A stretch of 33,973 nucleotides of DNA from Chromatiales bacterium (lineage in GTDB: Bacteria > Pseudomonadota > Gammaproteobacteria > RBG-16-57-12): contig JALSJH010000089.1 in the NCBI GenBank assembly GCA_026989455.1, forward strand, positions 1 through 33,973, given 5' to 3'. Positions 21,878 through 33,651 of this stretch are shown one piece after another (positions within the stretch are counted from its first letter, which is position 1; the number at the start of each line of letters is the position of its first letter). The notes under the pieces are model-generated. The model saw nothing but the letters and a program-made list of their open reading frames with translations, had not been told where the DNA came from and ran no database searches. The position numbers were made by a program, and so were the translations under genes.

Positions 21878-21944
21878 CTGTAATAAAAGCTTATAAAAAC
21901 CGTAACAAAAGAGAAAGCATTTCGTCATATTCCACCCTTAGAAT
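21878..21944 (+). promoter_or_regulatory. Putative PhoB-controlled promoter of the TonB operon
   Basis: Heptamers resembling the PhoB half-site CTGTMAY lie at 21878 (CTGTAAT, perfect), 21900 (CCGTAAC, one mismatch) and 21922 (TCGTCAT, two mismatches). They are spaced 22 bp apart, that is two PhoB repeat units each. The units at 21889 and 21911 are poor, though the AAAA spacers recur. A -10 box TAGAAT (21939-21944) begins exactly 10 nt after the last heptamer, as in the E. coli phoA promoter, and there is no good -35 box. The first gene starts at 21986 behind an AAAGGG site. Confidence 0.5.
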
Positions 21945-21985
21945 TCACCACTTGGATTTTTCTTGATATTTAAAGGGTGACTTAC

Positions 21986-22738
21986 ATGGTTATCAACACC
22001 GCTAGGGTGCTTGTGGTACTTGCTGTTTTGTTGAGCTTGACGATGCCAGCTATGGCAGCGGATGAAGTAGAGCTGCTTTCGCAACGCTTAATTGAACTCC
22101 GAGGCCAGGTGGATGACTTGAATGCTGAGTTGGAGCTGACTCGGGAGTCGAGCCACCAGAAGATTAAAATGCTGGCAGAGCAGCGCTTTGAGCTGGAGGG
22201 GCGTGTTAATCGTGAGGCGCTTAAGCAGCAGCGGCTTCGTGCCACTTTGGAAAAAAATCGTAAGTTGGCTGCCGAAGCGGGTAGTGATGAGAGCCAACTG
22301 ACCCCTGTGCTGAATCGTGCCATGGATGAGCTTGAGGTGGTCATTACCCAAGGGCTGCCATTTAAGAGCGCTGAGCGTTTGATGGCACTCGAAGAGATTC
22401 GCAACAAGCTAAAAGCGGGTGTGGTCTCCCCTTCCCGTACTGCCAATCGCCTGTGGGCCTTCTGTGAAGATGAGCTGGGCCTTACCCGTGAGATTGGCAT
22501 CTATCGTCAATCTATCGATCTGAATGGCGAGATCATTCTGGCCGATGTGGCAAAGCTGGGCATGGTGATGCTCTATTTCCGTACGCCCGATCAACGTCAT
22601 GGCATGGCTCGCAAACAGGGCGATGGCTGGCACTTTCAATTGGTTGAAGAGAAACAGCAACCGCAGGTGGCTGATCTTTTTGATGCCCTTGATAAGCAGG
22701 TGCGTACCGGCCTGTTTGAACTGCCTAACGCGATCTAA
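21986..22738 (+). CDS. DUF3450 periplasmic protein, first gene of the TonB operon
   Basis: The 250-residue protein has a signal peptide (cut near MPAMAADE), then a long coiled coil (~residues 25-95), and a C-terminal globular part with ANRLWAFCEDELGLTREIG and GMVMLYFRTPDQRHG, typical of DUF3450. Such proteins are encoded next to TtpC/ExbB/ExbD/TonB genes in Vibrio and other marine gammaproteobacteria; their biochemical role is not established. I chose the ATG at 21986 (AAAGGG site 9 nt upstream) over a GTG at 21977. The next gene begins 13 nt after the stop. It probably contacts the periplasmic part of the long ExbB. Confidence 0.85.
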   Translation: MVINTARVLVVLAVLLSLTMPAMAADEVELLSQRLIELRGQVDDLNAELELTRESSHQKIKMLAEQRFELEGRVNREALKQQRLRATLEKNRKLAAEAGSDESQLTPVLNRAMDELEVVITQGLPFKSAERLMALEEIRNKLKAGVVSPSRTANRLWAFCEDELGLTREIGIYRQSIDLNGEIILADVAKLGMVMLYFRTPDQRHGMARKQGDGWHFQLVEEKQQPQVADLFDALDKQVRTGLFELPNAI

Positions 22739-22751
22739 TTTTGAGGTTTAG

Positions 22752-24155
22752 ATGATGAAGTTGATTAAACAAAGCTTACAAGTGGCTCTGCTGCTACCCG
22801 CCTTGATGGTGGGTGTGGCTAATGCAGAGCAGGCCGGCGTTCAAAGCACACTGCAACAAGCTTATCAAAAGGAGTTCGCTTTTCTAGAGACCCAGAAGCA
22901 TGAGCTGGAGAAGCGCCTGGCAGAGATCGTCTCGAAGAGCCGTAGGGACGAAACGCAGTTACGAGATGAGATTAAAGAGTGGGAGGTCAAAGCGCTGGAT
23001 ATGGAGCTGACCTCTGAACGTCTTGGCGAGTTGGCGGTTGAGGCTGAGCGTCAGATTGAGGTGAACCAGAGCAATAAGGATGCACTGCAATCTACTTTTG
23101 ATCAGGCGGAAGCGAGTCTGGCTGATTACCAGGTCAAGCTTACTGAGCAGAGTGACTACGACCTACAAGGTGCATCGGATCATCGTTTGAGCCAGTTATA
23201 TCATATCGCCGCGCAAAGCATTGCCCGCATGTCTGGCATTTATCGAGAGGAGGGCAGCTTCTTCCTAGCCGATGGTGCACAGGTCGACGGCACCCTTCTA
23301 CGCATCGGGAATGTTGCGGCACTGGGCAGCAGCCCTCAGGGGGGAGGTGTTTTGGCACCCGCCGGTGCGGGCGAGTTTAAGGTGTGGGGCGAGAATACCA
23401 AGATAGATATTGATCAGTTGCTGCGGGGTGACGGCCCTGCAACGCTGTCACTGTTCCTGTTTGAGTCTCTGAATAAAGGCGTTGAAGTCAGCAAAGAGGA
23501 GGGGGCAATTGCGGTCATCGAGAGTGGTGGTGTCATCGCCTGGACGATTGTTACGCTGGGTCTGCTGGGTCTGTTGCTGGTGATCTTACGAGGCTTCTTC
23601 CTGATGGGAGCGAGCACCGCTACCGGCAAAGTAGATCGCAAAGTGAGCAAGCTGGTTGCCGAGGGTAAGCGGGATGAGGCGATGGCGTATTGCAAAAAGC
23701 TCAAAGGCTCTACTTCACGGGTGGTGGCGGATACGCTGCGCAACCTCGACCGTGATCGGGATCATCTGGAGGACATTATCTCCGAAAGTATTCTGCACGA
23801 ATCTTCAACCCTGAACCGTTTTGGAGCCTTCATTATGGTCATTGCCGCCGTATCGCCGCTGCTGGGCCTGTTGGGTACGGTGACAGGGATGATCGCGACC
23901 TTCGATGTGATTACTGAGTTTGGAACCGGTGACCCTAAACTGCTCTCTGGGGGCATCTCCACGGCGCTGGTCACCACAGAGCTGGGGCTGATTGTGGCGA
24001 TTCCGATATTGATTCTCGGCACGCTGCTGAATGCCTGGAGTAATCGCATCAAGGACGAGATGGAGAAGGCGGCACTGCATATAAGCAATGCCTCCCTTGG
24101 CTCAACCGCTGGTATACCTCTGGTAGGGCAGGATAAGGCATGTACGAACTATTAG
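22752..24155 (+). CDS. Long MotA/TolQ/ExbB-family proton channel with periplasmic coiled coil (TtpC-like)
   Basis: This 467-residue protein has a signal peptide (~1-25), a periplasmic coiled coil (~30-135) and a beta-rich segment (~140-250). The ExbB channel core follows: transmembrane helices at ~260-285, ~357-385 (PLLGLLGTVTGMIATFD) and ~395-425 (GLIVAIPILIL). The length and order match TtpC (about 450 residues), which Vibrio TonB2 systems require besides the normal ExbB. The core is the MotA/TolQ/ExbB domain that forms the proton-driven motor with ExbD. A GAGG site precedes the ATG. It overlaps the next ExbB gene by 16 nt. Confidence 0.9.
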   Translation: MMKLIKQSLQVALLLPALMVGVANAEQAGVQSTLQQAYQKEFAFLETQKHELEKRLAEIVSKSRRDETQLRDEIKEWEVKALDMELTSERLGELAVEAERQIEVNQSNKDALQSTFDQAEASLADYQVKLTEQSDYDLQGASDHRLSQLYHIAAQSIARMSGIYREEGSFFLADGAQVDGTLLRIGNVAALGSSPQGGGVLAPAGAGEFKVWGENTKIDIDQLLRGDGPATLSLFLFESLNKGVEVSKEEGAIAVIESGGVIAWTIVTLGLLGLLLVILRGFFLMGASTATGKVDRKVSKLVAEGKRDEAMAYCKKLKGSTSRVVADTLRNLDRDRDHLEDIISESILHESSTLNRFGAFIMVIAAVSPLLGLLGTVTGMIATFDVITEFGTGDPKLLSGGISTALVTTELGLIVAIPILILGTLLNAWSNRIKDEMEKAALHISNASLGSTAGIPLVGQDKACTNY

Positions 24156-24745
24156 ACGGCTTTAACTACTACATGGATGCGGGTGGCTATGTAATGCCCC
24201 CGTTAATCCTTTTGGCGGTGTTGATGTGGTATGGCATTGGCTATCGCTGGTCGGTGATAAAACGCGGCAGCAAGCGCAGCGTGAGGAATTTAATCGAGCG
24301 CTATCAGGCCAGCAAATGGGAACAGCGCAGCGGCATTATTCCTGAGGCGGTTGAGCAGGGCATGGCGTTGAAACGACGCAACGTGCCCTATCTGCGCCGC
24401 CATCTGGATGATCTATTCAGTGACTACACCCTGGCGATGGGGCAGCACGTGGTGCTGATTCGTACCTGCGTGCTGATTGCGCCACTGTTGGGGCTGTTGG
24501 GTACGGTATCCGGCATGATCGAGACCTTTGATTCACTGGTAGATATGGCGATGTTTACTCAGGATGGAGGCATTGCCGGGGGGATCTCCCAAGCGTTAAT
24601 TACCACTCAGTTTGGTCTCGCCATTGCCATTCCAGGTCTGTTGGTTGCCCGCTACCTGGAGAGACGTCAAACACGTATTGAGATGGACTTGAATCAGATC
24701 AAGGACATTCTCTGTAGTATGCCGATTGCGGAGCAGAAGAGATGA
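24140..24745 (+). CDS. exbB: ExbB proton channel subunit (short)
   Basis: The 201-residue protein has three transmembrane segments: ~18-35, ~107-130 (IAPLLGLLGTVSGMIETFD) and ~150-175 (QFGLAIAIPGLLVARYLE). The conserved ExbB/TolQ Thr and Gly positions are all present. It is the standard-sized partner of the preceding long channel, so this system has two ExbB-type subunits. The start overlaps the previous gene by 16 nt and its end overlaps exbD by 4 nt (ATGA). Confidence 0.92.
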   Translation: MYELLDGFNYYMDAGGYVMPPLILLAVLMWYGIGYRWSVIKRGSKRSVRNLIERYQASKWEQRSGIIPEAVEQGMALKRRNVPYLRRHLDDLFSDYTLAMGQHVVLIRTCVLIAPLLGLLGTVSGMIETFDSLVDMAMFTQDGGIAGGISQALITTQFGLAIAIPGLLVARYLERRQTRIEMDLNQIKDILCSMPIAEQKR

Positions 24746-25146
24746 GATATCGTCAACGAGAGAGCACGGATCAAGAGATCAATATGTCACCCCTGATCGA
24801 CATGGTTTTCATCCTGTTGATCTTCTTCATGGTGAGCGCCACCTTTGTCAAAGATATGGATCTAGAGATCCAGCGTCCCAAGGCACAGAGCGCGACCCCC
24901 TCCTCCACTAAGGCAGTACGGGTCTATATCGATGCCCGTGGTGACACCTTTTTAGATAACCAACCGGTGCGTAGTTGGGTGATTCAATCACGACTACGCG
25001 AGATTCTGCGGCTAAATGGCGAAAGCACCGTATTGGTGATCACCGATGACAATGTACCGGCCAGCAAGCTGATTGAAGTAGTGGATCAGTGTCGCCTTGC
25101 CGGTGCGGCGGATGTGGGTGTTGTGACCGAACGCGAAGGGGGCTAG
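24742..25146 (+). CDS. exbD: ExbD biopolymer transport protein
   Basis: The 134-residue protein has one N-terminal transmembrane helix containing the essential proton-carrying Asp20 (SPLIDMVFILLIFFM) and a periplasmic domain ending in a typical ExbD fold (VLVITDDNVPASKLIEVVDQ). With ExbB it converts the proton motive force into movement of TonB. The ATG overlaps the exbB stop (ATGA). Confidence 0.94.
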   Translation: MRYRQRESTDQEINMSPLIDMVFILLIFFMVSATFVKDMDLEIQRPKAQSATPSSTKAVRVYIDARGDTFLDNQPVRSWVIQSRLREILRLNGESTVLVITDDNVPASKLIEVVDQCRLAGAADVGVVTEREGG

Positions 25147-25149
25147 TTC

Positions 25150-25788
25150 ATGTATCAGCAAAAAAAGCTGCGCAGTCGCGCCAGTGGCCTGCTGTGGATG
25201 GGGGGCGGTGTCTCACTGCTGTTTCTCATTCTCGGCTATCTCAACACGCCGGTTGTGCCAGATGAGAAGGAGCGCCTGGGTTCACAGGTCGCCTTTGAGG
25301 TGAAGCAACCGCCCAAACCAGAGCCAAAGAAGCAGGTTGAGCGTAAGCCACCACCCCGCAAGGCGAGCAATACGCCACCACCACCCATGTTGGATTTTGG
25401 AGGTGATCTTGCGGGAATTGATCTAGGTATGCCCGGTTTTGAGATGAATCAAATGGGCGCGATAGAGAGTGATCTGCTGGGTGACACCAGCGGTGTGATC
25501 ATGACCAGCGAAATGGTGGATCAGCCACCACGCGCCACAGTTGCCACTCAGCCGGAGTACCCTGCGCGTGCCAAGGCGAAAGAGATTGAGGGCTATGTGG
25601 TACTGAGTCTATTGATCAACGAACAAGGACGGGTGGAGACCATTAAGGTGATCGACTCCTCGCCATCGGGCACCTTCGATGATGCGGCGGTTCGTGCGGT
25701 GAAAGGTTGGCAATTTTCGCCGGCTAAATATGAAGGTAAGTCGGTAGAGACCTGGGCCAACCAGACTATCCGTTTCGATTTGGGTTAA
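25150..25788 (+). CDS. tonB: TonB energy transducer
   Basis: The 212-residue protein has a membrane anchor (~14-32), a Pro/Lys-rich linker (~50-80, with KQPPKPEPKK and TPPPPM) and a C-terminal TonB domain (~130-212) with EYPARAKAKEIEGYVVLSL and ending in IRFDLG. The linker is short compared with E. coli TonB (239 residues), as in Vibrio TonB2. It starts 3 nt after exbD, and its stop overlaps the next start by one base (TAATG). Confidence 0.93.
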   Translation: MYQQKKLRSRASGLLWMGGGVSLLFLILGYLNTPVVPDEKERLGSQVAFEVKQPPKPEPKKQVERKPPPRKASNTPPPPMLDFGGDLAGIDLGMPGFEMNQMGAIESDLLGDTSGVIMTSEMVDQPPRATVATQPEYPARAKAKEIEGYVVLSLLINEQGRVETIKVIDSSPSGTFDDAAVRAVKGWQFSPAKYEGKSVETWANQTIRFDLG

Positions 25789-26942
25789 TGATGATGTTGA
25801 AGAAGATATTAATTGCCCTGCTGCTCATCGGTTTATGTAGTGGCGCGGCCACAGCAGAAAAGAGCGATAAAGAGCTGGACTATCTGGGGTTGGCTGCACT
25901 ACTGATCAAGGATGGTCACTATGCGCGGGCTATCATCACACTGGAAGAGGTGGATCTAACGGATGAAGCGCTGGATAAGATTCGCTACTACACCCTAAAG
26001 GGCTTGGCAGAGCTGAATATGCGCAGCTATACCGCAGCCATTACCGCCTTTGAGCGGGCGATTGAAGTGGGGCAGAGTGCGCCGCTGGTGAATATCTATC
26101 TGGCTCAAGCCTATTACGGGGCAAAAGATTATCCCAGCGCTTTGAAGCAAATCGATAATGCGGGCGAAAAGGCGCTACAGATGCCCGGAATTATCATGCT
26201 AAAGGCACAGCTTCACTGGGAGCTACAACAGCCACAATTGAGCTGGCAAGCACTGCAACTGGGTGAACAGCGCTTTCCTGACAATGGGCAGTTCATGCGC
26301 CGCCAGGTATTCATTCTGATCTCACTGGAGTTATACCAACAGGCGGCAGCTAAAGGGCTGGAGTATGTAGCGCACTTCACGGTAGCGGTAGATGATTATG
26401 TAGCGATTGGTGAAGCGCTGCGTGCCAGTGGCCAAGCCACTGCCGCATTGAGCTTTCTCGAGCCCGCCCGTATCAGCAAGCCGGGTGATGTCAATGTACT
26501 ACTGGCACTATCACGCAGCTATGTCGACTTGGGGCGTATACATACCGCTGCCGGTCTGATGGAGCAGGCGGCGATGCAGGATGAAAAATATCTCACCGAT
26601 GCCGCAGAGCTTTATCGTCGCGCCGGTAAATTATTGCGGGCAAGCTACCTCAATGAGCAGGCCACTGATCAAGAGAAAAAGCTAAAGCAGCGTCTGGCGC
26701 TGCTGTTAGAGCAACAGGCGTTTCATAAGGTAGAGGCGATGGAGGATGCCTTATATCGTAACGGCATTCTGCAAGATCAGAATATCCGCTATGCCCTGGC
26801 CTATGCCGCCTACAAAAACAGCCACTACGATATTGCAGATCGGCACCTAAGCTATATCACCCAACCCAAACTGTTTCAGCGTGCAATCACCCTGCGTAAG
26901 GCGATGGAGAATTGTCGCGCCGAACAGTGGCTGTGTATCTAA
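25788..26942 (+). CDS. Secreted TPR-repeat protein of the TonB operon
   Basis: The 384-residue protein has a signal peptide (MMMLKKILIALLLIG...ATA, ~23 residues). TPR-like helical pairs follow from ~30 to ~375 (for example YYTLKGLAELNMRSYTAAI and VNIYLAQAYYGAKDYPSALK). It should be a periplasmic adaptor. A TPR gene in this place is a constant part of the DUF3450/TtpC/TonB clusters in marine gammaproteobacteria. It may bind TonB, the DUF3450 protein or the outer-membrane receptor. The start shares one base with the tonB stop. The receptor gene begins ~66 nt later. Confidence 0.85.
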   Translation: MMMLKKILIALLLIGLCSGAATAEKSDKELDYLGLAALLIKDGHYARAIITLEEVDLTDEALDKIRYYTLKGLAELNMRSYTAAITAFERAIEVGQSAPLVNIYLAQAYYGAKDYPSALKQIDNAGEKALQMPGIIMLKAQLHWELQQPQLSWQALQLGEQRFPDNGQFMRRQVFILISLELYQQAAAKGLEYVAHFTVAVDDYVAIGEALRASGQATAALSFLEPARISKPGDVNVLLALSRSYVDLGRIHTAAGLMEQAAMQDEKYLTDAAELYRRAGKLLRASYLNEQATDQEKKLKQRLALLLEQQAFHKVEAMEDALYRNGILQDQNIRYALAYAAYKNSHYDIADRHLSYITQPKLFQRAITLRKAMENCRAEQWLCI

Positions 26943-27008
26943 CCCGTAAAACCAAATTCCGGCGTGATCTTTGCGCAAATTCATGAAGTGTCCGGGCTAA
27001 GCTATCCA

Positions 27009-30000
27009 ATGAGAATAAGTGTAATGGGTTTTATCAAATCGTTTTTTATATCTGCTTTGCTGGCGCTCTCATCCACTGCTACAGCGGGTGATGCGCTAAT
27101 AAGCCTCTACTTTTTTAAGTCGGGCGTACCGCAATCCGGTGTGCAGCTCTATGACGGCGAGCAGCTGCTGAATGAGAGCGGCGAAAACGGTGCCATGCAT
27201 CTTTATCTTGCCGCTCGGCAATATCAGCTAACAATTAACCAACCAAGCGCTGGCTTTCAGCAAACTCTTGATTTGGTGTTAAGCGAAGATGAGAGTATGC
27301 AGCTGATTGTTACCCTGCCTAAGCAGCAAGGGGGATCTGCAATCTTTGATATAGAGAGCTCGCATAAGTCCGGTGATAGCTTGCTGGAGGTGGTTGCGAC
27401 AAAGCGTGAGAAAAAACAGGATGAGAGTGGGCCAAAGGGGACGATTCGTGGTCGGGTGATGTCGTTAACCGCAAGCCTGCCTGTTCCGGGTGCTAAGATT
27501 TTTGTGAGTGGCCTAGCGGGGGATTTTCGTAGCGATGTGGATGGCTATTTCTCTATTCAGGCTCCTGAAGATCGCTACTCTATTTCGGTGGTTCATTCCG
27601 ATTTCAGCACCCAGACACTCTCTTCGGTAGAGGTGGTTGCCAATGAAACCTTCGAGCATATTTTTGAGCTAACACCCAGCACCTTCGAGCTGAAAGAGCT
27701 GGTGGTCTCCGGGCCAGCGATTGAAGGGGGTTTGCTGGCGCTGAGCGATGAGAGGCGCACCTCCTCATCGGTCAGCGAGGTACTGGGAGCCAGTGAGATG
27801 TCCAGCAGTGGTGATAGTGATGCGGCCGGCGCATTGAAGCGCGTCACGGGGCTGACGATTGTTGGCGGAAAGTATATTTATGTACGTGGCATGGGTGAGC
27901 GCTACTCATCGGTCACCATGAATGGAACATCCCTACCCAGTCCAAACCCATATCGTCGTGCGGTTGAGCTGGATTTGATCCCCACCAATGTCTTGGGTGC
28001 AATTGTGGTGCAGAAGACCTACTCCCCAGAAATGCCGGGGGACTTTGGCGGTGGTGCGGTGCAGCTGCGTACCGCAAAATTGGCAGAGGATCGATTTAAG
28101 ACGCTATCGATCAGCGTCGGTGGCAATAGCCAAAGCCTGTTTCAAGAGGGGCGCACCTACGAGGGGGGTGCCTATGACCTGCTTGGCTTTGATGATGGCT
28201 CCCGTGCGATGCCGGGTAAGGTAGAGAGTGGCACCCAAGGTGGGCGCACAGATCTGAATGGTACGGATCAAGAGAATGAGGTGATCGCAGAGTCATTTTC
28301 CAGAAACTACGCGGTTGAAAATATGACCATCATGCCGAATGTTGGCATTAAATATAGTGTGGGTGACCGCTGGGAAGACTACTCAGGTGATAGCGATACC
28401 GGTTGGGGCTATCTATTCTCAGTGAAGTACAGCAATAACTGGTCACACCGCGCTGAAGAGGAGTGGGATTACAGCCTGAATGGTCAGGGCGGCCTGGTCT
28501 CTGAAGATGAGTACACCCGAGAGATTACCGAGAATGAGATCGAGCTGAGTGGCGTGCTTCACCTAGGCTATGAGATTGGCTCAGAACATGCCTTTGGTTC
28601 AACCACGATGCTGGCGCGCAAGACGGTTAAATCAGTAGAGTACGAAGAGCTCTTTCTTGCTGAAAATGAGATCACCGCACGCGATATCACACTGGATTGG
28701 GAAGAGCGCCAACTGTTTACTCAGCAGTTTACCGGCCAACACTATTTTGAACAGTGGCAAGATCTAAGTATGGATTGGAGTGCCACCTATGCACTAGCCA
28801 CCCAATATGCGCCGGATCGTCGTAAGTATCGCTATGAACAATCGGATGATGGTGTCTGGGCATTCTCCCGCTTCGGTGAGTCCAATCAGCGTTTCTTTGA
28901 TGAGATGAGTGACGAGGTTTTTTCCCTTGGTTTGGACTTTAAACTACCACTCTATGATTTATGGTCAGCAAACACCGATCTGAAATTTGGCTTGGCCTAT
29001 GAAGATAAAGAGCGTGACGCAAGCTCTGCGGGGTTCCGCCTGGTTAATAACCGTTACTGTAACAATGCGAACTGTCTAGTCTCTCCTGATGAGCTGATTT
29101 CTGATTCACCGAATGAGGTGCTGACGAACGATAATATCGGTGCAGACGGTTATGAGTTGGATGTAATTACCATGCCAGAGGATGCCTTTCGTGCACAACG
29201 AAAGGTCTCTGCACAATACCTGTTGGGCGAGTTCAATTATGAATCTGCAAAGGTGATGGCAGGGCTGCGCGCCGAACAGTACAACCCGTATGCCGAAACC
29301 TACCGTTTGGATAACCCTCTGGTGGCGGTTGAGACACCCGCCAAGAGTAGCCGTGTGATATTGCCAGCACTCTCGTTGACTTGGCTATTGAATCAACAGC
29401 ATCAAATGCGCTTTGCCTACTCCAAGACAGTAAATCGCCCTGAGCTAAAAGAGATTACCGATGCGCGTTGGTTAAATCGTGAAAACGGCAGCTACTATCG
29501 CGGCAACCCAGAGCTGGAGGAGGCTGAAATCAGTCACTTTGATATTCGCTGGGAAAATTATTTAACGCGCTTCGAAACGATCTCTCTGGCCCTGTTCTAT
29601 AAATCATTTGATAGACCCATTGAGGAGATTACCCGTTTGGGTGGCGGTAACGAGGTGACCTTTTTTAATGTCGCAGGGGCCACTAACTACGGTATCGAAT
29701 TGCAAGGGCGCGCATGGCTATCACGCTTCTTTGGCAGGAGCATGTCCCGGTTCTTTATTGATACCAATATGTCGCTAATTGAGTCCAGTGTTGAGCTGGG
29801 TGACGAAGCCGACAATATGACCTCAAAAGAGCGCCCGCTTCAGGGGCAATCACCTTGGGTGATCAACCTGAAGCTAGGTTATGAAAATCTAGTGGCCATG
29901 ACCGAATCTTCGTTGATGTTTAATATGGCGGGTGAGCGGATTACCAAGGTAGAAACTTCCGGTGTACCCGATGTCTATGAGCAGCCGGTTCCGACCTTGG

Positions 30001-30179
30001 ATTTTGTTTACCAAAAAACCTTGGTTGATGGCTTTCATGGTGAAAAGTGGAAGTTAAAAGTCAATATAAAGAACCTTCTTGATCCGACCATTGAGTCAAC
30101 CAAAGGTGGCCAGGTTGAGAAGCGCTATAAGAGAGGCCGCAGCATTAAAGTGACACTGGTATATGATTTTCCCTCCTAA
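27009..30179 (+). CDS. TonB-dependent outer-membrane receptor with two carboxypeptidase-regulatory-like domains
   Basis: The protein has 1056 residues from the ATG at 27009. The ATG at 27024 is equally possible, and an upstream GTG at 26964 would spoil the signal peptide. The signal peptide ends near TATA-G. Two Ig-like extensions (~28-110 and ~145-225) precede the plug (~255-380: GALKRVTGLTIVGGKYIYVRG, then FGGGAVQLRT) and the beta barrel (~400-1056). TonB-box-like stretches occur between the two extensions (LLEVVATKREKK, ~125-136) and just before the plug (ELKELVVSG, ~227-235). It should import a large ligand, or possibly move a protein, across the outer membrane, powered by the TonB genes just upstream. 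The ligand is unknown. A terminator follows. Confidence 0.92.
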   Translation: MRISVMGFIKSFFISALLALSSTATAGDALISLYFFKSGVPQSGVQLYDGEQLLNESGENGAMHLYLAARQYQLTINQPSAGFQQTLDLVLSEDESMQLIVTLPKQQGGSAIFDIESSHKSGDSLLEVVATKREKKQDESGPKGTIRGRVMSLTASLPVPGAKIFVSGLAGDFRSDVDGYFSIQAPEDRYSISVVHSDFSTQTLSSVEVVANETFEHIFELTPSTFELKELVVSGPAIEGGLLALSDERRTSSSVSEVLGASEMSSSGDSDAAGALKRVTGLTIVGGKYIYVRGMGERYSSVTMNGTSLPSPNPYRRAVELDLIPTNVLGAIVVQKTYSPEMPGDFGGGAVQLRTAKLAEDRFKTLSISVGGNSQSLFQEGRTYEGGAYDLLGFDDGSRAMPGKVESGTQGGRTDLNGTDQENEVIAESFSRNYAVENMTIMPNVGIKYSVGDRWEDYSGDSDTGWGYLFSVKYSNNWSHRAEEEWDYSLNGQGGLVSEDEYTREITENEIELSGVLHLGYEIGSEHAFGSTTMLARKTVKSVEYEELFLAENEITARDITLDWEERQLFTQQFTGQHYFEQWQDLSMDWSATYALATQYAPDRRKYRYEQSDDGVWAFSRFGESNQRFFDEMSDEVFSLGLDFKLPLYDLWSANTDLKFGLAYEDKERDASSAGFRLVNNRYCNNANCLVSPDELISDSPNEVLTNDNIGADGYELDVITMPEDAFRAQRKVSAQYLLGEFNYESAKVMAGLRAEQYNPYAETYRLDNPLVAVETPAKSSRVILPALSLTWLLNQQHQMRFAYSKTVNRPELKEITDARWLNRENGSYYRGNPELEEAEISHFDIRWENYLTRFETISLALFYKSFDRPIEEITRLGGGNEVTFFNVAGATNYGIELQGRAWLSRFFGRSMSRFFIDTNMSLIESSVELGDEADNMTSKERPLQGQSPWVINLKLGYENLVAMTESSLMFNMAGERITKVETSGVPDVYEQPVPTLDFVYQKTLVDGFHGEKWKLKVNIKNLLDPTIESTKGGQVEKRYKRGRSIKVTLVYDFPS

Positions 30180-30236
30180 CTTTATGCGTGGTAAACAGTA
30201 GACCCTAATCCCTGGGTAGAAAAGCAACTTGACATC

Positions 30237-30259
30237 AACCTCGCTTAGCGGGGTTTTTT
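30237..30259 (+). terminator. Rho-independent terminator of the TonB operon
   Basis: AACCTCGC and GCGGGGTT pair (one G-T) around a TTA loop, followed by TTTT. It lies 58 nt after the receptor stop and separates the operon from the lipoprotein gene. The rest of the 356-bp gap (30180-30535) holds only the promoter region described next; no gene was seen. Confidence 0.85.
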
Positions 30260-30445
30260 GTCGATTCAGCCCACTCATCTTTTGCCTCAACGCTTCGTTA
30301 TTTTCGTACACAATCGCTCAAATACCCTCGATGTGCTCGCTCTTTGCCTGCGAAAACGCCTCGCTTTGAAGCAAAACCCAACCAGGTTGAATAGTGGCGC
30401 TCTTTATCTAAATTTGTTTTTAAAAAAATAATGACCTTTTATCGT

Positions 30446-30501
30446 TTGTAGTATTTCTGTCACAGCACTGTCGTCATAGTTACATTTTAGGCGCATAGAA
30501 T
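30446..30501 (+). promoter_or_regulatory. Putative PhoB-box promoter of the lipoprotein gene
   Basis: Four heptamers stand on a strict 11-bp period: TTGTAGT (30446), CTGTCAC (30457), CTGTCGT (30468) and GTTACAT (30479). Compared with the PhoB half-site CTGTMAY, the second is perfect, the third has one mismatch and the first has two. The fourth has three, but resembles the CTTACAT unit of the E. coli pstS Pho box. A -10 box TAGAAT (30496-30501) begins exactly 10 nt after the last heptamer, with no recognisable -35. The start codon at 30536 has a GGAGAG site. Confidence 0.65.
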
Positions 30502-30535
30502 CAGCGGTGATTTCTATTAAAACTTGGAGAGATAA

Positions 30536-33427
30536 ATGGTTTTTCAAAAGAAACTCCTCGCACTGCTGGTTGCAGGCGCGGTAGCTGGTTTGGCCGGTTG
30601 TGGCGGTGGTGACTCAAGCTCTGATAGTGGGGGCACTACGCCGCCTCCTTCAGGCGCAAATGATCCCTATGAGGTATCCGCATGGTTTAACAATGGTGAC
30701 AATAACCGTGTTATTGATCCACAACTGGCATCTGATGGCCAGCCATCCGCAAGCTCTCCTGACTTGCAAGATGCCACTTATCTGTTTACTGCCAGCTCGC
30801 CAGATCTTCAGGATGCTGCCTACTCAATTATCGGTAGCAACCTAGGTAATGGCTTTGTTGACGTGGATTACATCGGTGCATTTCCACAAGACACTAACAA
30901 CAACTGGACCGAAGGCTGGACGGTTGGCCTGAATGGCAACACAACCGTATGGGCTCCGGCAGCAACACCGTCTGTGGATGGCAACTGCCCAACGGGTACA
31001 ACGCTGAATGGCTCAATCAATCTGCCTGTAGCTGTCGGCGGCGGTGCAATGGATCTGTGTACGCTAGCGGCGACCTATACGACCGATGGCTCTACTCTGG
31101 CGCTAACGGCTGACAATGTCTATGAGCTAGCATCAGGTACCGGCACCTATATTGGTAATGGTAATGGGGTGCTCAACGGTGTCACAGCCAGCTCCTCAGT
31201 AACGCTGGATATCCAAGCCGGCACGCTGATTCTAGGTGGCTCGCAAGAGGCGCTGGTCATCACCCGTGGCTCTGAAATTAATGCCATCGGTAGTGCACAA
31301 GACCCTATCGTAATGACTTCACGCGCCCAGTTTGATGCCTGGGTTGCGGGGGGTGACGGCACGGCTGACCGGGGTGAATGGGCAGGTTTTGCACTAATGG
31401 GTTACGCTCAGTCTAACGAGTGCGGCACCCCCTGTGACGTGGTTGCTGAAGGTGGCATTGGTTACTACGGTGGCACCAACGACGCAGATACCAGCGGTAC
31501 TATTCAGTATCTCGTGGTACGCCAAGCGGGTAATGACCTAGATGGCAACGGTAACGAGCTAAACGGTTTCACACTGTTTGGTGTCGGCTCTGCAACCACC
31601 ATGAATCACATTCAGGTTCATAAAGGTCTGGATGATGGTATTGAGCACTTCGGTTCAGAGACCTTTATGTCGCACATCGTCCTGACCGATAACGGCGACG
31701 ATAGCTTTGACTGGGGTCAAGGTTACCGGGGTGGTGCGCAATTCATGGTCATTAAACAGGCAGCAGATCAAGCGGATCGTGCTATTGAAGCGGATAATGA
31801 TGGCAGCAACCCCATTGTAACGCCAGTCTCCATGCCGACTCTGGCCAACATGACACTGATCGGTATGCCGAATGGCGCGCCGGGTGCAGACGGTATTCTG
31901 CTGCGTCGTGGTACGGGTGCCAAAATCTACAACTCCGTGGTAACGGGTTTTGCTGACAGCTGTATTGATCTGGATGGTTCCGATACAGAGAACCAGTTGA
32001 ATGCAGGCAACATCGTGTTTGAGAACGTGGTCATTGATTGCCCGAAAGAGAGCTTTGAAAGCGGCGACGCGGATGTGGCGGCTTCTGTCATTCAAGCGGC
32101 ATTCGATGCGGGTAGCAATAACCGCGAAGTTAATCCAAACCTGATGGCTTATGGTCAGCCAAATGCGATTGATGGTATGGGTTCTACTTTTGTAACCACG
32201 GACTACATTGGCGCATTCCCTCAGGATACGGCAGACAACTGGACGAACGGTTGGACAGTCGGCCTAAATGGTAACAACACCGTTTGGGATACGACAGCTC
32301 CGGTTGCAGATGCAACGTGTCCTGCAGGCACGACTGTAAACGGTACCAAGACACTGCCTACCAGCGTAAATGGTGGTGCGGGTGGCTCGATGGATCTGTG
32401 TACGCTAGCGGCCTCTTACGCGACCGATGGCTCGATCATCCATCTAACCGCAGACAACATCTATCAGCTAGCCTCAGGCACGGGCACTTATATCGGCAAC
32501 GGTAACATCGTGCTCAACGGTGCGGCTGCAGCGGCTTCAGTAACGCTGAAGATTGATGCAGGCACGCTGATTCTAGGTGGCTCGCAGGAGGCGCTAGTTG
32601 TAACACGTGGTTCAACGGTTGAAGCACGGGGTACCGCTGCTGATCCCATCGTAATGACCTCTGTTAGCCAGTTTGATGCTTGGGTTGCCGGTGGTGATGG
32701 TACCGCAGACCGAGGTGAGTGGGCTGGTTTCGCTTTGATGGGTTACGCCCAATCTAACGAATGTGGCACACCCTGTGACGTCGTTGCTGAAGGGGGCATC
32801 GGTTACTACGGTGGCACCAATGATGCGGATAACAGCGGTATTATTGAGTATCTGGTTGTTCGCCAAGCGGGTAATGACCTGGATGGTAACGGCAACGAAC
32901 TGAATGGTTTCACACTGTTTAGCGTCGGCTCTGCCACCACCATGAACCACATTCAGGTTCATAAAGGGCTAGATGATGGTATCGAGCACTTCGGTTCCGA
33001 GACCTTCATGTCACACATCGTACTAACCGACAACGGTGACGACAGCTTCGACTGGGGTCAAGGTTATCGAGGGGGTGCTCAGTTCATCGTCATCAAGCAG
33101 GCGGCAGATCAGGCAGACCGTGGTATTGAGGCGGACAACGATGGCGACAACCCACAGGCGACACCAATCTCAATGCCTACCCTGGCTAACATGACCATCA
33201 TCGGTCAGCCACTAGGTGATACGGGCGCGGACGGTATCATGCTGCGCCGGGGAACGGGTGCTAAAATCTATAACACCATCGTAACCGGCTTTGCCGATAC
33301 CTGTATCGACATCGATGATGATGCCACCTTCAACCGGGGTGGTACCAGCGCAACTGACCAGACCGGCGACCTGATGATGGCCAACTCTATCGTTAGCTGC
33401 CCAAATGAGAACTTTGACGAAGAGTAA
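30536..33427 (+). CDS. Outer-membrane lipoprotein with two large beta-helix-like repeats
   Basis: The 963-residue protein has a lipoprotein signal with lipobox LAG-Cys22. The next residue is Gly, so no Asp retention signal is present and outer-membrane placement is expected. A Gly/Ser/Pro-rich tether follows (~23-43). The body is two homologous repeats (~45-507 and ~518-963). Each has a linker with YIGAFPQDT and NWT-x-GWTVGLN, then a long repetitive Gly/Asp/Asn-rich part with EWAGFALMGYAQ, YYGGTNDAD, NELNGFTLF and DDGIEHFGSETF. The same phrase pattern occurs in secreted beta-helix proteins of Bacteroidetes found near TonB-dependent receptors. Six Cys per repeat are conserved. No catalytic motif of a phosphatase is visible. 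It is the last gene of the locus and has its own promoter. Function unknown; a surface ligand-binding partner of the receptor is my guess. Confidence 0.85.
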   Translation: MVFQKKLLALLVAGAVAGLAGCGGGDSSSDSGGTTPPPSGANDPYEVSAWFNNGDNNRVIDPQLASDGQPSASSPDLQDATYLFTASSPDLQDAAYSIIGSNLGNGFVDVDYIGAFPQDTNNNWTEGWTVGLNGNTTVWAPAATPSVDGNCPTGTTLNGSINLPVAVGGGAMDLCTLAATYTTDGSTLALTADNVYELASGTGTYIGNGNGVLNGVTASSSVTLDIQAGTLILGGSQEALVITRGSEINAIGSAQDPIVMTSRAQFDAWVAGGDGTADRGEWAGFALMGYAQSNECGTPCDVVAEGGIGYYGGTNDADTSGTIQYLVVRQAGNDLDGNGNELNGFTLFGVGSATTMNHIQVHKGLDDGIEHFGSETFMSHIVLTDNGDDSFDWGQGYRGGAQFMVIKQAADQADRAIEADNDGSNPIVTPVSMPTLANMTLIGMPNGAPGADGILLRRGTGAKIYNSVVTGFADSCIDLDGSDTENQLNAGNIVFENVVIDCPKESFESGDADVAASVIQAAFDAGSNNREVNPNLMAYGQPNAIDGMGSTFVTTDYIGAFPQDTADNWTNGWTVGLNGNNTVWDTTAPVADATCPAGTTVNGTKTLPTSVNGGAGGSMDLCTLAASYATDGSIIHLTADNIYQLASGTGTYIGNGNIVLNGAAAAASVTLKIDAGTLILGGSQEALVVTRGSTVEARGTAADPIVMTSVSQFDAWVAGGDGTADRGEWAGFALMGYAQSNECGTPCDVVAEGGIGYYGGTNDADNSGIIEYLVVRQAGNDLDGNGNELNGFTLFSVGSATTMNHIQVHKGLDDGIEHFGSETFMSHIVLTDNGDDSFDWGQGYRGGAQFIVIKQAADQADRGIEADNDGDNPQATPISMPTLANMTIIGQPLGDTGADGIMLRRGTGAKIYNTIVTGFADTCIDIDDDATFNRGGTSATDQTGDLMMANSIVSCPNENFDEE
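30701..32056 (+). repeat. Repeat unit A inside the lipoprotein gene
   Basis: Unit A aligns in frame with unit B at 32117-33424. The central parts are offset by exactly 1341 bp (447 codons), and the offset is 1416 bp at the start. Unit A has ~27 extra residues near its beginning, including a local duplication (SSPDLQDA twice, 16 codons apart). Protein identity in the central ~165 residues is very high, while many third codon positions differ. Confidence 0.9.
32117..33424 (+). repeat. Repeat unit B inside the lipoprotein gene
   Basis: This is the second copy of the ~440-residue unit. It ends directly at the protein C-terminus (CPNENFDEE), without the YIGAF/GWT linker that stands before each unit. 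In many relatives that linker closes the protein, so the array looks cut at a repeat boundary. Confidence 0.9.
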
Positions 33428-33621: not shown

Positions 33622-33651
33622 AAGGGGACTGAGCAATCAGTCCCCTTTTTT
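33622..33651 (+). terminator. Strong rho-independent terminator after the lipoprotein gene
   Basis: An 11-bp perfect stem (AAGGGGACTGA with TCAGTCCCCTT) closes on a GCAA tetraloop and is followed by TTTT. It would end the lipoprotein transcript downstream of repeat copy 3. Confidence 0.95.

Follow-up and report, generated by a model that had tools for sequence, protein, structure and literature searches.

A predicted PhoB-controlled TonB motor, receptor and ElpS-type lipoprotein module in a Chromatiales bacterium

The 33,973-nt stretch analysed here (hereafter the window) is contig JALSJH010000089.1 of a gammaproteobacterial Chromatiales assembly (GCA_026989455.1). It carries a seven-gene set (21977-30179) encoding a DUF3450 protein, a TtpC-like protein, ExbB, ExbD, TonB, a TPR protein and a TonB-dependent receptor (TBDT), followed by a gene for a beta-helix lipoprotein (Table 1). 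Since adjacent genes of the set overlap or lie within 21 nt of each other, we regard them as one operon, and the domain matches bear out the gene order given in the original prediction; ATG 21986 is a possible alternative start of the DUF3450 gene. The lipoprotein had likewise been described as beta-helix-like, in agreement with its model, and as a transcription unit of its own, in agreement with the terminator-like hairpin behind the operon and its separate promoter. The terminator 3′ of the lipoprotein gene was read directly from the sequence; a terminator scan did not pick it up, probably for its short T-run beyond the stem. No Rfam elements were found between 19000 and 33973. Recent acquisition as foreign DNA, judged by composition, was rejected, the GC content of the module being that of its flanks; genus mates nevertheless lack the module.

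Table 1. Features of the locus in window coordinates.
Feature	Position	Strand	Evidence or detail
Operon PhoB-type promoter	21900-21944	+	CCGTAAC-aaaa-GAGAAAG-catt-TCGTCAT, 10 nt, -10 TAGAAT 21939-21944
DUF3450 protein (TtpB-type), divergent clade	21977-22738	+	PF11932, 113 bits
TtpC-like large ExbB/MotA-family protein	22752-24155	+	PF01618
ExbB	24140-24745	+	PF01618
ExbD	24742-25146	+	PF02472
TonB	25150-25788	+	PF03544, 86 bits
TPR protein (TtpD-type)	25788-26942	+	TPR families; position conserved among loci
TonB-dependent receptor	26964-30179	+	PF00593, PF07715, PF13620/PF13715
Intrinsic terminator 3′ of operon	30237-30260	+	Terminator-like hairpin with T-run (30237-30255); splits operon from lipoprotein gene
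Lipoprotein PhoB-type promoter	30446-30501	+	TTGTAGT-attt-CTGTCAC-agca-CTGTCGT-cata-GTTACAT, 10 nt, -10 TAGAAT 30496-30501
Predicted ElpS-family beta-helix lipoprotein, two tandem units	30536-33427	+	Lipobox by eye; homologs; model; repeat identity
Intrinsic terminator 3′ of lipoprotein	33622-33651	+	AAGGGGACTGA-gcaa-TCAGTCCCCTT-TTTT, read directly from sequence

The DUF3450 protein scores below its canonical relatives on PF11932 (150-325 bits) and falls on a separate branch of the tree (83/94). In the receptor, domain matches and the predicted structure place two N-terminal beta-sandwich domains, the second of them CarboxypepD_reg, before the plug and barrel, and structure comparison matched the model to TBDT folds such as PhuR, FecA and TbpA. 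The lipoprotein begins with MVFQKKLLALLVAGAVAGLAGC, in which the lipobox LAGC was recognised by eye without a predictor, and consists of two units (aa 103-508 and aa 548-961) with a mutual identity of 78.5%, the predicted structure showing, with confidence, a parallel beta-helix at its core. Invariant acidic residues form a ladder on this protein that may hold metal ions. A PDB sequence search with the lipoprotein gave no meaningful match, and a fold search against PDB and viral structures returned generic beta-helix matches only. Homologs of the lipoprotein are present in 28 of 370 genomes of the class.

Both promoters have the layout of Pho regulon promoters, in which 7-nt direct repeats with an 11-nt period replace the -35 element about 10 nt 5′ of the -10 box, although the operon promoter, judged by itself, fits less well. 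The lipoprotein promoter has four half-sites in 11-nt phase (30446, 30457, 30468 and 30479; box 30446-30485), and the operon promoter has three, at 21900-21906, 21911-21917 (weak) and 21922-21928. A generic matrix of two half-sites recognised the lipoprotein promoter (p 0.003) but gave only p 0.06 for the operon promoter by itself, a weakness resolved by a 34-nt PhoB-promoter matrix trained on homologous loci of other genomes with the window excluded. On both strands of the window this matrix ranked the lipoprotein promoter first (18.4 bits, shuffle p 0.0005) and the operon promoter second (17.6 bits, p 0.001), the next site scoring 8.9, so that the PhoB-like half-sites noted at first reading 10 nt before two identical TAGAAT boxes outscore every other site in the window. 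The same genome encodes phoBR-pstSCAB-phoU, its phoB (contig 93) being a true PhoB by a curated cut-off. The originally proposed comparison with Pho genes of this genome came out in favour: boxes similar to those in the window precede its pstS, pstC and phoB. A genome-wide search with the bare Pho consensus, whose matches include sites upstream of pstC and phoB, showed no enrichment (34 matches against 36 for the reversed pattern), and the case therefore rests on homologs. A Pho-like box was also met at a regulator gene on contig 64, which was rejected as PhoB, the box overlapping the gene start and the neighbour being RelA/SpoT.

The module is conserved in gamma- and betaproteobacteria and in some delta-type lineages, cultured carriers being Nitrosomonas ureae, Marinicella sediminis, Methylobacter luteus and Wenzhouxiangella. 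Receptor and lipoprotein genes are neighbours in 62 of 80 loci, and the lipoprotein accompanies the module through three differing gene arrangements. At a box score of at least 12, a Pho box lies upstream of 38/60 lipoprotein-linked DUF3450 motor operons (p 6e-18) and 45/85 lipoprotein genes (p 4e-16), each compared with 9/150 other genes; canonical DUF3450 loci have one in only 2 of 22 cases (p 1e-5). The predicted co-occurrence of DUF3450-TonB-receptor-lipoprotein synteny with conserved Pho boxes thus holds in many lineages. Of the two boxed canonical loci, one adjoins a lipoprotein-receptor pair, and such a pair is also present about 15 kb away from the second. Spacing between box and -10 element, which played no part in scoring, is exactly 10 nt at 38 of 83 homologous sites and 10+22 at 21 more. 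Beside the module, 24 of 135 loci have pst, PhoB/R, PhoX, PhoD or porin genes, and in two genomes motor, receptor, PstS, lipoprotein and PstCAB follow one another on a single strand. Phosphate control is not universal, since the module lacks a Pho box at three loci of Bdellovibrionia and Bacteriovoracaceae. Collectively, sequence comparison supports the anatomy of the locus, its Pho promoters, the conservation of pair and motor, the linkage to pst, phoBR, phoX and phoD, and the ElpS-type synteny described below, and the system is very probably turned on at phosphate depletion.

The order ttpB-ttpC-exbB-exbD-tonB-ttpD of the Vibrio TonB2 and TonB3 systems is identical to that of the window operon; the window TtpC-like gene matches Vibrio ttpC2 in place and neighbours, and TonB3 also has a receptor gene within the operon (PMC6957404). 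However, TonB2 is under Fur and iron control and serves iron uptake (PMC6957404), whereas the window operon has a Pho-type promoter, and its DUF3450 protein sits on a separate branch. Fur regulation characterises Vibrio TonB2 and does not extend to every TtpBCD-type motor. That the locus is a TonB2-type iron or haem system with promoters resembling Pho boxes by chance is very improbable: the gene order of an iron system and a barrel fold resembling haem and siderophore receptors speak for it, but the fold likeness is generic to TBDTs, Pho boxes recur with exact -10 spacing across many lineages, pst and phoB genes neighbour homologous loci, and Fur boxes are not enriched, none being found here (at best, the operon promoter gave a 10/19 Fur match, p 0.97).

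For the pair itself, the closest precedent is in Caulobacter crescentus, where the phosphate-depletion-induced lipoprotein ElpS (CC0170), also with the lipobox LAGC, adjoins the TonB-dependent receptor CC0171, whose gene is reported as constitutive; purified ElpS had no phosphatase activity, and alkaline phosphatase activity was undiminished after elpS deletion (PMC2996285). In Alphaproteobacteria, homologs of the window lipoprotein (31-43% identity) lie in the order lipoprotein-receptor-gspC-D-E-F, and through their synteny the window pair is the predicted equivalent of ElpS-Cc0171. Unlike in the Caulobacter pair, the window receptor has extra N-terminal domains and a complete TonB motor in its operon, and the lipoprotein is duplicated. 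No type II secretion (T2SS) genes were seen beside the window pair, where the contig ends 546 nt 3′ of the lipoprotein; a T2SS next door, as in the alphaproteobacterial homologs, is a matter of context and does not define the protein. In Flavobacterium johnsoniae, the part of the study considered here reports FI/FII lipoproteins (PUSIII/PUSIV) that are related to ElpS (FII annotated IPR011050), are strongly induced by phosphate depletion and adjoin TBDTs with PF13715/PF14905, one of them in a phoBR cluster; unlike in the window, that part names no motor genes at these loci (PMC8115612). Through the ElpS link and this published comparison, the FI/FII-TBDT pairs are predicted to match the window pair. 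The original prediction of a counterpart to phosphate-responsive Bacteroidetes pairs thus holds for FI/FII, but not for the SusCD-like PusCD, a phosphate-responsive receptor with a surface lipoprotein (PMC8115612): a domain search found no SusD domain (PF07980/PF14322) in the window lipoprotein, and SusCD/PusCD membership was rejected.

Myxococcus xanthus Oar, a CarboxypepD_reg TBDT beside its own Ton genes and active in starvation, resembles the window receptor, but it is needed for export of the protease PopC, is not phosphate-specific and has no reported beta-helix lipoprotein (PMC6434023). By analogy, receptor and motor might place or release the lipoprotein at the cell surface in phosphate starvation, which we consider unlikely. 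The Oar-type domain with a complete Ton system alongside fits such export (PMC6434023), as do the T2SS-independent route by which ElpS passes the outer membrane (PMC2996285), the position of alphaproteobacterial pairs next to a secretion machine where other pairs adjoin the motor, and the many homologous lipoproteins that look soluble. Yet CarboxypepD_reg domains are also common among importers, Alphaproteobacteria retain the pair with no motor nearby, and cc0171 deletion left ElpS production running, production rather than surface display being what was reported.

More doubtful still is a Pho-controlled action on glycans, in which the beta-helix, as lyase or hydrolase, would free phosphate-bearing glycans, such as teichoic-acid-like polymers, for uptake. 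Alginate epimerases and lyases, polygalacturonase and PL6 are its best, weak fold matches, none below 1e-3; invariant acids stand at equivalent turns of successive coils in alignment and model, and Lidbury et al. note polygalacturonase homology of the Flavobacterium relatives (PMC8115612). Against this, beta-helix proteins all resemble one another, TM-scores by query length are about 0.13-0.26 among the PDB matches listed, and no catalytic residues matched a known enzyme.

Taken together, the locus probably encodes a PhoB-controlled outer-membrane module for phosphorus scavenging. Upon phosphate starvation, PhoB would activate both promoters, the first yielding the receptor with its own TtpB-TtpC-ExbB-ExbD-TonB-TtpD motor and the second the ElpS-type surface lipoprotein. 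At the cell surface, the lipoprotein would most likely bind a phosphorus-containing polymer or ester or help to release it. Powered by its private motor, the receptor would carry the product inward to the periplasm, for phosphatases and PstS to handle next. Here we infer the surface location of the lipoprotein, the substrate, the direction of transport and the service of this motor to this receptor; the window TonB is one of three above cut-off in the genome, and the two others, with several further receptors, weigh against exclusivity. Further points against this reading are the weak half-site of the operon promoter, the loci that lack a Pho box, the enzymatic findings on ElpS (PMC2996285) and the many homologous lipoproteins that, by eye, seem to carry plain Sec signals and no lipobox, a poorer match to a fixed surface cap. 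A tentative broader possibility is that dedicated, Pho-controlled TonB motors and receptors, conserved in beta-, gamma- and delta-type proteobacteria, either display or export ElpS-type beta-helix proteins at the cell surface, TonB energy then serving to deploy a phosphorus scavenger outward, or form an energised outer-membrane import route feeding PstS directly.

The locus had been called a new type of system, which overstates the case: lipoprotein-receptor pairs tied to phosphate starvation (ElpS/Cc0171, FI/FII-TBDT) and motors with a receptor (Vibrio TonB3, Myxococcus Oar) are already known. New is the union of pair and motor in a predicted Pho-controlled module whose DUF3450 proteins form a clade of their own; the receptor's presumed private motor has no earlier link to phosphate, and we found no description of a Pho-controlled DUF3450/TonB motor in the open-licence literature. 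To our knowledge, how large phosphorus compounds pass the proteobacterial outer membrane in phosphate-poor water is poorly known. Two little-understood strands, the ElpS-type pair and the TtpB/C/D-type TonB motors, come together in this locus under a common regulator and beside pst, and the locus predicts two branches of DUF3450 motors, one for iron and the other for phosphate. The module also occurs in cultivable ammonia-oxidisers and methane-oxidisers, and the locus opens direct tests, for example of the phosphorus sources whose use depends on the receptor.

The gene layout and promoters described in the original prediction were confirmed in the window, with Pho-like half-sites ending 10 nt 5' of TAGAAT at both promoters. 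The lipoprotein promoter carries four half-sites in an 11-nt phase, and the operon promoter carries a poor half-site between two good ones that are 22 nt apart. A generic Pho matrix, set from textbook knowledge, yielded p = 0.003 for the lipoprotein promoter and p = 0.06 for the operon promoter. A 34-nt matrix comprising box, 10-nt spacer and -10 was trained on 49 non-redundant sites of homologous loci, window excluded; its training sites were picked by the generic matrix plus an in-phase TANNNT -10, making it partly dependent on the hypothesis, with the window sites held out. Over the whole window, on both strands, its top two matches lie at 30468 (18.4 bits) and 21911 (17.6), and the third scores 8.9.

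Transcript boundaries around the lipoprotein gene
Feature	Position	Strand	Remark
Hairpin with T-run	30237-30255	+	Ends operon, 5' of lipoprotein gene
Lipoprotein gene	30536-33427	+	Own promoter, own terminator
Terminator of lipoprotein gene	33622-33651	+	By eye

The 33,973-base window is contig 89 of an assembly of 2.37 Mb in 116 contigs (99% complete); judging from its relatives and gene content, the organism is probably a gammaproteobacterium. Contig 93 carries phoB, phoR, pstS, pstC, pstA, pstB and phoU in one run, and the encoded PhoB scores above the curated cut-off. Used as positive controls, three of these genes display boxes similar to those of the window: the pstC promoter reads CTGTCAC-attg-CTGTCAT, then 10 nt and TAAATT, and like boxes are present at pstS and phoB. 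With local background, the 34-nt scores are 26.3 (pstC), 13.1 (pstS) and 9.9 (phoB); scored alike, the window promoters reach 15.9 and 16.2.

As anticipated, conserved Pho boxes accompany the DUF3450-TonB-receptor-lipoprotein synteny. At a generic-matrix score of 12 or more, they lie upstream of 38/60 lipoprotein-linked DUF3450 genes and 45/85 lipoprotein genes, versus 9/150 other genes of the same loci, some of the nine being pstS or phoB (Fisher p 6e-18 and 4e-16, indicative values since related genomes are non-independent samples). Only 2 of 22 canonical DUF3450 loci have a box (Fisher p 1e-5 for the comparison with canonical loci, likewise indicative); one (L110) directly adjoins a lipoprotein-receptor pair (L038), and the other (L106) lies ~15 kb from one. 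Of 83 sites, 38 have a TANNNT -10 starting exactly 10 nt past the box; the distance is 32 nt (room for two additional half-sites) in 21 sites and 21 nt in 4, and no other single offset accounts for more than 7. This spacing has no part in generic-matrix scoring. A Fur-box search gave matches no more than chance. Collectively, these sequence data strongly support Pho control of the module. The generic matrix found no Pho box in Bdellovibrionia and Bacteriovoracaceae loci; in these predatory-type lineages (L196, L199, L212) the module is full, with the lipoprotein as first gene.

A Pho-regulon gene lies inside the retrieved stretch of 24/135 loci, a few loci being the same genome twice (PhoB and PstS called by curated cut-offs; PhoX, PhoD and Porin_5 by Pfam). 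Genomes L043 and L046 each carry DUF3450-TtpC-ExbB-ExbD-TonB-TPR-receptor-PstS-lipoprotein-PstC-PstA-PstB on one strand; in L174 (Alcanivoracaceae) PstS-PstC-PstA-PstB-PhoU comes after the receptor, L057 has the order PhoB-PhoR-lipoprotein-receptor-porin-PhoU, and L203 (Nitrosomonas ureae) has lipoprotein-PhoX-PstS. A Porin_5 gene with a strong Pho-type promoter adjoins the module in L172 (9451-10665) and L057 (16802-18262), and is possibly a phosphate-starvation porin. The complete genome G304 (L039, L040, L136) holds two near-identical whole-module copies, each beside a phoB or phoB-like gene.

Lipoprotein homologs occur in 28/370 genomes of the class. A receptor-alignment scan retrieved 80 loci, from Marinicella, Wenzhouxiangella, Methylobacter, Nitrosomonas, Lysobacterales and Alcanivoracaceae; its most distant matches are in records that bear the names Bdellovibrionia, Myxococcales, Bacteriovoracaceae and Desulfobacterales. 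The lipoprotein adjoins the module in 62; a contig end cuts most of the other 18, the clearest absences being L144 and L169. Its gene lies downstream (window, Nitrosomonas), divergently upstream (Marinicella) or first in the same direction (Bdellovibrionia, Myxococcales); that it is kept in all three layouts speaks for a functional link. The nearest relatives compared, genus and family mates G001, G002 and G003, lack lipoprotein, receptor and DUF3450 altogether, indicating a patchy distribution by gain or loss, although module GC resembles flank GC.

Pfam and NCBIfam searches assigned the window lipoprotein to no family above cut-off. It consists of two units (78.5% protein identity), and its predicted structure is a parallel beta-helix whose pLDDT exceeds 90 across most of residues 150-530; fold comparison returned generic beta-helix enzymes only, none better than E = 0.001. 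The most conserved residues, E341, D366-D367-G-x-E370, D388-D389, D392 and E418, occupy equivalent turns of successive coils in the model's strand list, which suggests a putative metal-binding ladder along one face. The window gene (30536-33427) shares its duplication with G065 (L034) and with numerous further homologs of 900-1000 aa in gamma- and alphaproteobacteria, and one 1398-aa open frame in G706 (L228 region) has three matching stretches; most other homologs have one unit. Many homologs (L146, L195, L203, L165 and others) seemingly have an ordinary Sec signal plus an extra N-terminal domain (e.g. ...FEGQWYRGDQDNGTGWQMDYI...) and no lipobox.

In gene order the window motor matches Vibrio ttpB-ttpC-exbB-exbD-tonB-ttpD (PMC6957404), whereas its DUF3450 falls on a branch separate from canonical DUF3450 (a split with 29 rows on one side and support of 83/94), with lower Pfam scores (~90-132 bits versus 150-325 for full-length hits). 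Downstream of alphaproteobacterial-type lipoprotein homologs (another class of the same phylum) come receptor, GspC, GspD, GspE, GspF and GspG, the arrangement of Caulobacter ElpS-CC0171, to which the window pair is matched by this synteny. In L250, L252, L254-L258 and L260, of this type, the type II secretion cluster takes the place of the TonB motor. ElpS is produced upon phosphate starvation, its gene neighbours a TonB-dependent receptor gene and gspC-N, it is surface-exposed independently of the T2SS, and its overproduction raises supernatant phosphatase activity, ElpS itself being no phosphatase (PMC2996285). Flavobacterium FI/FII lipoproteins, reported relatives of ElpS and by that link putative counterparts of the window lipoprotein, adjoin TBDTs and are strongly induced by phosphate depletion (PMC8115612).

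By analogy with Oar-PopC, a precedent for receptor-driven export (PMC6434023), the lipoprotein might itself be exported by the receptor, and the variable anchor among homologs (lipobox or plain Sec signal) is a hint in that direction. In the simplest account, which is import, the surface lipoprotein would capture, or help release, a phosphorus compound, the receptor would take it up powered by the co-expressed motor, and the product would be handed over to PhoX/PhoD/PstS. The proposal of a new type of system goes too far: known parts are combined here in a new way, which does not make the system a wholly new type.
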